NCBI RefSeq assembly: GCF_009741925.1
Contig: NZ_WPCC01000010.1
Span: 1-64,000, forward strand
Length of the DNA stretch: 64,000 bases
Reading direction: 5' to 3'
Source: Natronomonas sp. CBA1123
GTDB lineage: Archaea > Halobacteriota > Halobacteria > Halobacteriales > Haloarculaceae
The notes below the pieces were generated by a model, which did no database searches, was not told the DNA's origin, and saw only the letters and a list, made by a program, of their open reading frames with translations. Numbering within the stretch: the first letter of the stretch is position 1; each line of letters begins with the position of its first letter. Of the stretch, positions 10,377 to 11,895 are shown in pieces. A program made the position numbers and the translations under genes.

Positions 10377-11024
10377 TCACGGGAACGCGTCGAACGGCGT
10401 CCACTCCCGCGGTTGGTCGGCCAGTCCCCGCGTCCTGAGTTCGGTCCTGCCGTCGCGGTCGCGAACCTCGATGCGGCCCGAACAGAACTGCGCGAGCGTG
10501 TTGATGGCCTGTTCGTCGTGTCCGGAGGGGTCGACGACGAACACGCCGAGCCCGTCGACCTTGTCGATACGCCCCACGAGCGTGTGGGTGAATCGAGACA
10601 CCGTTCGGAGGTCGCCGAACGACAACAGCGTCGACACCGAACAGAGTCCCGTCCGAACGCGGTCGATGTCCGTGGTCTTGAATTCCCGATACACGTCGGA
10701 GAACCGCATCCCGATGCCGGTGAGGTCCGAGGGGCCGGAGACGGGCAACACTCGCGCCGGTACGTCCGGGTCGTCGTCGCCGACGCAGTCGAGTATCGCG
10801 GTCCGGTCGTCTCGAACGTCGATACCGAATCGCTGGCAGTCCTCAGCCATCCGCGAGGCGCGCTTGTTCGTCGTGACGATGATTGCTCCCTCGTCGTACC
10901 CACCGGCGAGCATCTGCATACTGAGGCTTCGAGCGCCATCGTGGGTCGGACCGGAAACGAGCACGCTGGTCCCCGGTCGGATATCCGCCAGCGGCAAACC
11001 GGTGAATCGGTACTCGTCACGCAT
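10377..11024 (-). CDS. RecA-superfamily DUF7504-like protein with degenerate P-loop
   Basis: A 215-residue protein resembling the haloarchaeal DUF7504 family, KaiC/RecA-like proteins that usually accompany two-component proteins. The region where a Walker A motif is expected reads VSGPTHDGARSLSMQML (about residues 24-40), with Ala where the P-loop lysine should be, so ATP binding may be lost or altered. A Walker-B-like GLGVFVVDPSGHD lies near residues 170-182. The start ATG at 11024 overlaps the end of the upstream receiver-GAF gene by 8 bases, implying translational coupling. It probably acts with that protein in signal output. The exact family name is from memory. Confidence 0.65.
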   Translation of the reverse strand: MRDEYRFTGLPLADIRPGTSVLVSGPTHDGARSLSMQMLAGGYDEGAIIVTTNKRASRMAEDCQRFGIDVRDDRTAILDCVGDDDPDVPARVLPVSGPSDLTGIGMRFSDVYREFKTTDIDRVRTGLCSVSTLLSFGDLRTVSRFTHTLVGRIDKVDGLGVFVVDPSGHDEQAINTLAQFCSGRIEVRDRDGRTELRTRGLADQPREWTPFDAFP

Positions 11025-11895
11025 CGTTTCCACCCCCGCGTTCGCGCAGCCGTCGACGCAACGTCAGTTGCTCCATCACCTCGTCGGCCAGCAGCGACAG
11101 CAGTTCGCGGTCGCGTTCGGAGAGGGACCGCGGTTCGTCGTCGTAGACACAGAACGTCCCGATGGCGTGGCCCTCGGGTGTCGTGACGGGCGCGCTCGCG
11201 TAAAACCGGATATCGGCGGATTGTAGCCCTTCGTTGTCCTCGAACCGTGGGTCATCGCTGGTGTCCTCGATGACGGTCACCCCCTCCTCGAGCAGCGCGT
11301 AGGTACACACCGTCTCCTCGCGGTCGATTGGGTCGAAAGAGATGCCGAAACAGGAGAGAAACCGCTGTTCGTGGGCGTCGACGAGGCCGACGGCGGCGGC
11401 GTCGAGGTCGAACAGCGCCACGGCGAGTTCGGTCAGTCGGTCGATGGAGTCGCCGAGGGATTCGGGGTCGGTCGCGTACCGTTCGAGTGCCGCCACTCGC
11501 GCGTCCTCGTCGTCCGGAAGCGGATACGCAGTCTGGTTTCGAAACAGCAGCGCGTGTTCGACGAGTTCGGCGAGTTCCTCACGGGCGTCGGGGTCGTCCT
11601 TCGAGAGGTACTCCGCGACCACGTCACCGAAGGCGGCGGTGTCGATGTCGTCCAGCGGCGTGTCGGTAAACAGGATACACGCGGCGTCCGGCGCGTCGTT
11701 TCGCGCTGCTCGAATCAGTTCCAACCCCGTCCCGTCGGGGAGGTCGTACTCCGTGACGAGACACTCGACGGGCCGCTCCGTGAGTACGCTCCGCGCATCG
11801 GATAGCGACGCGGTCGTCTCGACTTCGTAGGTAGAATCGAGGGCCGCCCGCGTCGCCTCGCGGTCGGCCTCGCTTTGGTCGACACAGAGAATCAT
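11017..11895 (-). CDS. Receiver-like plus GAF domain signalling protein
   Basis: A 292-residue protein. Residues 1-115 form a response-regulator fold: ILCVDQSEADRE at strand 1, CLVTEYDLPDGTGLELI around strand 3, and AEYLSKDD with the conserved Lys at strand 5. The position normally held by the phospho-accepting Asp (usually SDYDLP) is Glu in TEYDLP, so the domain is probably not phosphorylated. Residues 135-290 form a GAF domain (RFLSCFGISFDPIDREETVCTYALLEEGVTVIEDTSDDPRF) of the type that binds small ligands. There is no kinase or DNA-binding output, so the signal may go to the overlapping DUF7504-like partner. It is first in a two-gene operon. Confidence 0.78.
   Translation of the reverse strand: MILCVDQSEADREATRAALDSTYEVETTASLSDARSVLTERPVECLVTEYDLPDGTGLELIRAARNDAPDAACILFTDTPLDDIDTAAFGDVVAEYLSKDDPDAREELAELVEHALLFRNQTAYPLPDDEDARVAALERYATDPESLGDSIDRLTELAVALFDLDAAAVGLVDAHEQRFLSCFGISFDPIDREETVCTYALLEEGVTVIEDTSDDPRFEDNEGLQSADIRFYASAPVTTPEGHAIGTFCVYDDEPRSLSERDRELLSLLADEVMEQLTLRRRLRERGGGNDA

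Follow-up and report, generated by a model that had tools for sequence, protein, structure and literature searches.

A conserved haloarchaeal gene pair of a pseudo-receiver–GAF protein and a DUF7504 partner of predicted KaiC-like fold, both lacking classic phosphotransfer or nucleotide-binding residues

What can a receiver domain do when its phospho-accepting aspartate is replaced by glutamate and the product of the adjoining gene lacks a P-loop lysine? This question is raised by two genes in a 64,000-nucleotide stretch of DNA from Natronomonas sp. CBA1123 (contig NZ_WPCC01000010.1, positions 1 to 64,000; hereafter the window), for which a sequence-only reading had proposed a phosphorylation-independent signalling pair driven by a GAF domain. 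The open reading frame list of the window confirms a REC-GAF gene at 11017-11895 on the minus strand, encoding 292 amino acids from an ATG start. That interval, under which the changes in both proteins had been reported, covers the REC-GAF gene alone, and the P-loop change sits in the adjoining gene. The start of the latter can be placed at a GTG at 11033, resulting in a 17 bp overlap with the REC-GAF gene, or at an ATG at 11024, resulting in an overlap of 8 bp. The two genes are:

11017..11895, minus strand: REC-GAF protein, pseudo-receiver plus GAF (open reading frame; Pfam; AlphaFold2 mean pLDDT 90.6, pTM 0.66)
10377..11033, minus strand: DUF7504 partner with predicted KaiC-like fold, 218 amino acids from the GTG at 11033 (open reading frame; Pfam; AlphaFold2; Foldseek; VIA-align)

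Residues 2-100 of the REC-GAF protein score 38.4 bits against the Pfam Response_reg profile (PF00072), above the cutoff of 30.2. The features of this domain are as follows:

11596..11892, minus strand: receiver-like domain, residues 2-100 (Response_reg match G000:C48:11596-11892, 40.7 bits in the profile search of the genome)
11875..11880, minus strand: Asp6-Gln7, first metal acid kept and second lost (family alignment)
11749..11751, minus strand: Glu49 of TEYDLP in the phospho-acceptor column, codon GAG (genome and family alignments)
11662..11667, minus strand: Thr77-Asp78, conserved Thr kept with an acid at the following position, T+1 (family alignment)
11599..11601, minus strand: Lys99 of YLSK, conserved receiver Lys kept (column Lys in 47/112 and Arg in 58/112 homologues)

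Alignments within the genome and across the family place Glu49 in the column of the acceptor Asp and Lys99 in the Lys column, in agreement with the sequence-only reading, and Tyr96 at the Y-T coupling position is also retained. Judged by the residues of a functional receiver, the domain keeps the Thr/Ser and the Lys and lacks the Asp acceptor and the pair of metal acids. With a PF00072 score above cutoff and key phosphotransfer residues missing, it falls by its sequence within the definition of a pseudo-receiver (PsR/ALR).

Pseudo-receivers are common in this genome. Its 13 Response_reg matches at E 0.01 or better (L064 and L065 among them are below the Pfam cutoff) have Asp at the acceptor position in nine cases, Glu in two, Ala in one and Gly in one, the non-Asp cases being the window protein and L061 (both Glu), L062 (Ala) and L064 (Gly). 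The receiver-like domains of L061 (contig C36), L062 (C4) and L064 (C16) belong to open frames that encode 692 to 964 residues.

The family was surveyed in a class-level search of 341 haloarchaeal genomes, evenly drawn from a larger group, of which 95 matched at E 1e-25 or better; because usually seven candidates were scored per genome, second copies may be missed. From the 115 REC-GAF loci taken, three with interrupted or incomplete genes (L188, L190 and L192) were dropped, leaving a receiver alignment of 112 rows. In-frame stops lie within the REC-GAF match at L180, L188, L190 and L192.

The acceptor column of these 112 haloarchaeal homologues holds Glu in 59, Ala in 37, Gly in 9, Asp in 3, Ser in 2, and Thr and Arg in one each. 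The first metal position is Asp in 95, and the second is acidic in 4 and lost in 108 (Gln7 in the window protein), a loss that goes beyond those noticed in the single sequence. The conserved Thr is found in 106 homologues, Tyr or Phe occupies the Y-T coupling position in 110, and the Lys column holds Lys or Arg in 105 and another residue in 7. The residue after the Thr is Asp or Glu in 96 (Asp78 in the window protein, codon 11662-11664). An acid directly after this Thr is unusual among receivers, which are described in a recent perspective as generally carrying a small residue at T+1 (PMC12632262). Since Ala stands at the acceptor position in 37 relatives and Gly in 9, Glu does not appear to be specially required; from its aligned residues, the REC-GAF family is a pseudo-receiver family in which Glu is the commonest letter and not a required one.

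The second half of the question concerns the neighbouring gene product, which had been called DUF7504-like from its sequence. It scores 108.9 bits against DUF7504 (PF24336, cutoff 27), as anticipated, and 25.4 bits against KaiC (PF06745), just below that cutoff of 26.6. An AlphaFold2 prediction from 43 sequences (pLDDT 92.7, pTM 0.91) retrieves KaiC CI, PH0284 and FlaH in Foldseek with E values of about 2e-10 to 2e-9. The VIA-align Z scores of the predicted structure are 20.8 for PH0284 (2dr3; rmsd 2.3 over 195), 20.1 for KaiC (7s65) and 18.1 for FlaH (4wia). The window DUF7504 is thus predicted to have a KaiC/RecA fold. Its nucleotide-binding elements are altered at two places:

10926..10952, minus strand: former P-loop GPTHDGARS, residues 28-36, without Lys (alignments)
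10632..10661, minus strand: former Walker B strand RVRTGLCSVS, residues 125-134, with Arg127 and Gly129 kept and no Asp at 131

GPTHDGARS aligns without gaps to GPAMTGKE of related DUF7504 proteins, which supports its being a P-loop position that lacks the Lys, and a canonical P-loop GxxxxGK[S/T] is found in 0/112 partner models (four of them, L094, L188, L189 and L190, are incomplete). Without these four, the DUF7504 alignment has 108 rows. Column 34, where the Lys would stand, is occupied by A, L, T, S, I, V or P in at least 106 of them, and a Lys is found at column 35 in 12. The Walker B column (131) is Asp in 3/108 and Cys in the window partner. The Glu pair that follows strand 2 in KaiC is absent from the window partner in the alignments, and the combination of Walker A and Walker B Asp that marks a KaiC ATPase is missing. 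With its predicted KaiC-like fold (VIA-align Z of 18-21) and lost nucleotide motifs, the partner agrees with the description of an iKaiC domain. Other positions of the partner are near-invariant: Arg127 (108/108), Gly129 (106/108), Asp103 (107/108) and Asp168 (107/108). The absence of classic residues from both proteins, suspected from one locus, therefore recurs across the 112 haloarchaeal homologues and their partners.

The remaining part of the REC-GAF protein is a GAF domain (PF01590, residues 150-275), which scores 56.3 bits against a cutoff of 22.4. Its predicted model superposes on the solved Pseudomonas aeruginosa domain 4zmu with an rmsd of 1.6 over 159 columns (Foldseek). Three cysteines stand out:

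11071..11451, minus strand: GAF domain (Pfam PF01590; solved relative 4zmu, E 1.1e-19)
11350..11352, minus strand: Cys182, Cys in 105/112 homologues, not Cys in 4zmu or six bacterial relatives
11305..11307, minus strand: Cys197, Cys in 109/112, also Cys in 4zmu and the six bacterial relatives
11149..11151, minus strand: Cys249, Cys in 108/112, also Cys in 4zmu and the six bacterial relatives

All three positions are jointly Cys in 104/112 homologues, and Cys182 appears specific to the haloarchaeal REC-GAF family in the comparison with 4zmu and the six bacterial relatives. Arg192 and Tyr232 in the GAF domain and Arg133 in the helix preceding it are present in 112/112. Conservation is higher in the GAF region than in the receiver columns for the acceptor, the metal acids and the Lys, although Thr77 is conserved about as well as the GAF domain. 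This pattern is consistent with the GAF-driven signalling proposed earlier and is not proof of it. Within the genome, L252 is the sole protein with Cys at both shared positions among 12 other GAF matches aligned (a thirteenth, L262, was omitted). The three near-invariant cysteines form a possible metal or thiol site. We considered Fe-S or thiol redox sensing and set it aside as suggestive only, two of the three cysteines being also present in bacterial GAF domains. The chloroplast sensor kinase, described as a case of an iron-sulphur GAF domain, offers an analogy to these cysteines and not a match (PMC6949291).

Whether the two genes belong together can be judged from their conservation as a pair. 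A DUF7504 gene lies downstream at 112/115 REC-GAF loci, the exceptions being L120, L191 and L192. At L120 and L191, the REC-GAF gene is uninterrupted and the partner was not found in the DNA stretch examined. By tblastn, the DUF7504 partner is found in 99/110 loci with a gap never above 9 bp, negative gaps being overlaps of which some stem from misplaced starts; gaps of 38 to 56 bp separate three Haloglomus-type REC-GAF/DUF7504 pairs and one other. A third, family-wide gene of the module was not found among the open reading frames lying up to 2.5 kb away at 44 named loci: the broadest neighbour cluster spans 6 genus labels, in a clustering where MAG labels were taken as genera and some clusters resemble antisense frames. 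Conservation therefore seems limited to the pair itself.

The closest named relative is Natronomonas gomsonensis (L193), whose REC-GAF protein is 93% identical. The dN/dS values (NG86) relative to this species are 0.155 for REC, 0.25 for GAF and 0.18 for DUF7504; relative to L025 they are 0.25, 0.39 and 0.26, respectively. Both genes are under purifying selection. Given that the Glu49 and P-loop changes recur across the family and that dN/dS relative to the nearest relative is 0.155-0.25, these changes are unlikely to be accidental.

DUF7504 extends well beyond this pair. The Natronomonas genome itself has 12 copies, and a family-level search matched 129/146 genomes with E values of 1e-20 or better. 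We examined a second group of 40 DUF7504 loci, hand-chosen from the family-level list and hence a non-random sample of one family. A receiver gene lies just upstream in 39 of the 40, with no receiver found within the short stretch of L351. Three loci (L348, L354 and L360) belong to the REC-GAF type: their receivers carry Glu and Arg, and their DUF7504 proteins have no P-loop Lys. The receivers of the other 36 resemble a REC-HalX protein of the Natronomonas genome, and all 36 keep both the Asp and the Lys. They are named REC-HalX by likeness, Pfam recognising HalX in L066 (Natronomonas genome) and in the similar protein at L270. Likewise, the P-loop Lys is retained in all 37 remaining DUF7504 proteins of this group, where the next residue is Glu, Gln, Asp or Arg and not Ser/Thr. 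An exception is the REC-HalX pair on contig C31 of the Natronomonas genome, in which an intact receiver accompanies a Lys-less DUF7504 (GPSPETNERL).

Among 68 DUF7504 matches in eight other genomes, L282 (G174:C3:60783-61295:+) is the sole one with a canonical Walker A, GPSMTGKS, together with a Walker B, LDSLS, and from these motifs is likely an active DUF7504 member. Several others have GKR at the P-loop, for example GPPMTGKR. The canonical member and the GKR copies indicate that Lys loss is not a property of DUF7504 as a whole and is probably secondary. The Lys loss noticed earlier in the neighbouring protein thus extends to the REC-GAF-linked partners but not to DUF7504 at large, where the second group keeps the Lys and one member is canonical. 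A DUF7504 tree sampled from 29 REC-GAF-linked, 14 REC-HalX-linked and 61 other sequences plus one KaiC places 28 of the 29 REC-GAF-linked rows on one branch (SH-aLRT 98). This tree and the receiver tree used below were built quickly, have long branches and are arbitrarily rooted.

Several other observations were made on DUF7504 genes. The pair Arg127/Gly129 was tried as a marker of receiver-linked DUF7504 proteins and rejected, Arg127 being common in unlinked proteins and position 129 being mostly Ala in REC-HalX-linked ones. L276 (595-2037, plus strand) encodes 481 residues with a receiver-like N-terminal region (E 4e-6 with our own HMM), a long linker and a C-terminal DUF7504; as Pfam finds no receiver there, it was not used as evidence of a receiver-DUF7504 fusion. 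L303 (1407-3038, plus strand), which falls near the REC-GAF-linked DUF7504 proteins on the tree, encodes DUF7504 followed by about 290 residues; these are unnamed by Pfam, and this candidate fusion was likewise not used. In contig C14 of the Natronomonas genome, a DUF7504 gene identified by Pfam (L075, 2972-3499, plus strand) lies between two genes that we take to be A-type ATP synthase subunits B and D. HVO_2248 of Haloferax volcanii, which has been connected with hypermotility (PMC7824242), was considered as a candidate DUF7504.

How then might the pair work? We lean towards a haloarchaeal two-gene signalling module in which a pseudo-receiver–GAF protein and a KaiC-fold DUF7504 with a decayed nucleotide site signal without receiver phosphotransfer, probably by contact and shape change. 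Its observed basis is made up of sequence data, the conserved pairing of the genes, the residue loss in both proteins, the purifying selection and the confident KaiC-like predicted fold. The GAF domain would sense a ligand or redox state, and its change could reach the receiver-like domain through a dimer or domain rearrangement. The receiver-like domain may serve as a docking surface, either switchable or static. The KaiC-fold partner would bind this surface and relay its state to a target by contact, with neither phosphotransfer to the receiver nor ATP hydrolysis by the partner. Some points count against such a module. The conservation of the Thr, of the Tyr/Phe and of Lys or Arg indicates that the receiver has kept some elements of its switch, and Glu could in principle be modified. 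Furthermore, the whole-protein AlphaFold2 pTM of only 0.66 leaves the domain arrangement of the REC-GAF protein unsure. The apparent lack of a partner beside the uninterrupted REC-GAF genes of L120 and L191 is a further such point.

A possible, if doubtful, broader reading is that haloarchaea share a general two-gene plan, with a receiver protein signalling to a KaiC-fold DUF7504 protein encoded beside it. In the REC-HalX version, where the receiver site and the P-loop Lys of the partner are usually retained, phosphorylation of the receiver would control a KaiC-like switch with bound nucleotide. The REC-GAF version would have lost both sites together, one loss permitting or driving the other, and its Cys-bearing GAF domain would have taken over the input. 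Joint decay fits the REC-GAF pairs and the sampled REC-HalX pairs, but we rejected it as a rule in view of the C31 pair described above. As the REC-GAF and REC-HalX modules occupy essentially separate DUF7504 branches, co-decay may moreover amount to one or two events.

The preference for signalling without phosphotransfer has to be weighed against other roles for the receiver. Glu49 could be a built-in phosphomimic that locks the receiver on through Thr77 and Lys99, with regulation left to expression or to the GAF domain alone; we regard this as rather unlikely. Glu is the commonest replacement here and in other pseudo-receivers, where it is discussed as a possible phosphomimic (PMC12632262; PMC4395418). 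Lys accompanies Glu in 42/59 rows and Ala in 1/37 across the 112-row alignment, and the branch containing the window protein has Glu in 21/22 and Lys in 21/22 (SH-aLRT 96). On the tree, however, the state of the acceptor column (Glu or another residue) and that of the Lys column (Lys or another residue) each switch at least 10 times. Nine independent tree pairs give 2.5 same versus 1.0 opposite (median sign-test p of 1, with informative pairs too few to reach 0.05), so that the association is unsupported there. A functional Glu-Lys salt bridge was dropped for the same reason, strong as the raw counts are. Moreover, relatives with the same partner carry Ala, Gly, Ser, Thr or Arg in place of Glu, and the phosphomimic idea is stated to have been disproved in some proteins (PMC12632262).

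The turnover of the acceptor column, with 19 or more changes on the tree, in a domain that keeps its predicted fold and a REC dN/dS of 0.155 would also suit a receiver that is merely a structural dimerisation or docking module, leaving sensing and output to the GAF domain and DUF7504. This is unlikely in our judgement, since the Thr (106/112) and the Y-T aromatic (110/112) are kept more than a plain scaffold seems to need. The same Thr, together with the acid at T+1 (96/112) and the Lys or Arg (105/112), can be read in favour of a modified two-component response regulator phosphorylated at another residue, such as Asp78, or at Glu49 itself. We consider this very unlikely: with the second metal acid lost in 108/112, Mg2+ binding should be poor, and an acidic residue next to the Thr would be expected to leave little room in the site. 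Asp54 is conserved in 107/112 but sits in a loop five residues beyond the acceptor, and a shifted phospho-acceptor in this receiver is unlikely. Finally, the in-frame stops at L180, L188, L190 and L192 might point to a decaying module without function, an idea that is scarcely credible in view of the low dN/dS relative to the nearest relative (0.155 to 0.25) and the pairing at 112/115 loci. Signalling by contact between the pseudo-receiver–GAF protein and its KaiC-fold partner remains the account we favour.

Our literature search returned no paper naming DUF7504 and nothing on the REC-GAF/DUF7504 pair. Pseudo-receivers and inactivated KaiC domains, the latter reportedly treated by Makarova in 2017, are known already; what is new is their pairing here and not a new kind of system. 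The module provides an archaeal pseudo-receiver with a candidate partner gene and a wide distribution, and the REC-GAF loci include culturable genera such as Haloarcula and Halobacterium among the named loci. The second receiver/DUF7504 pair, with intact residues, is a natural contrast to it. By its sequences and predicted structure, DUF7504, an apparently unstudied family, would be tied to receiver signalling and to the KaiC fold.

Pseudo-receivers are estimated at about 6% of a representative bacterial receiver set, and about 10-15% of archaeal receivers are without Asp (PMC12632262). Halobacteria are listed among the archaeal classes richest in Asp-lacking receivers, and Glu is given as the commonest replacement of the Asp at 26% (PMC4395418). 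The authors of the 2025 perspective describe themselves as unaware of published work on archaeal pseudo-receiver function (PMC12632262). The REC-GAF protein shares with PsR/ALR domains such as RitR, ChxR and FrzS a receiver fold without phospho-acceptor (PMC12632262, PMC4395418, PMC5965902). As described for that group, the first metal acid is often kept, the second is usually lost, and Glu is the commonest substitute. The examples given there are bacterial, plant or fungal, whereas the domain studied here is joined to a GAF domain in a protein without a recognised output domain, and its partner has a predicted KaiC fold.

Archaeal REC-GAF and REC-PAS-GAF regulators have the same domain order and likewise no output domain (PMC5847659). 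In the 2018 archaeal census, REC-PAS/GAF proteins are expected to dimerise on phosphorylation and/or to change on ligand binding, and their partners are called unknown (PMC5847659). Unlike that class as described, the REC-GAF family studied here lacks the acceptor, and a candidate partner gene can be named for it. The iKaiC domains listed in the same census are DUF835, MEDS, iKaiC-REC, REC-DUF835 and HalOD1-iKaiC, with receivers attached in Methanosarcinaceae, Methanomicrobia, Thermoplasmata and Nitrososphaera-type archaea and HalOD1-iKaiC in Halobacteria (PMC5847659). They resemble the DUF7504 partner in their KaiC-like fold, their decayed nucleotide site and their association with receivers or with a signalling domain of haloarchaea. 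However, the census cases are fusions, whereas DUF7504 is encoded here by a separate overlapping gene next to a degenerate receiver.

KaiC, PH0284 and the FlaH/ArlH ATPases are alike in predicted fold, but the window partner lacks their Walker A Lys and Walker B Asp. A parallel in arrangement is the REC-HalX/DUF7504 pair, where the receiver gene also lies immediately upstream of the DUF7504 gene; it differs in keeping the receiver Asp and Lys (36/36) and the P-loop Lys (37/37).
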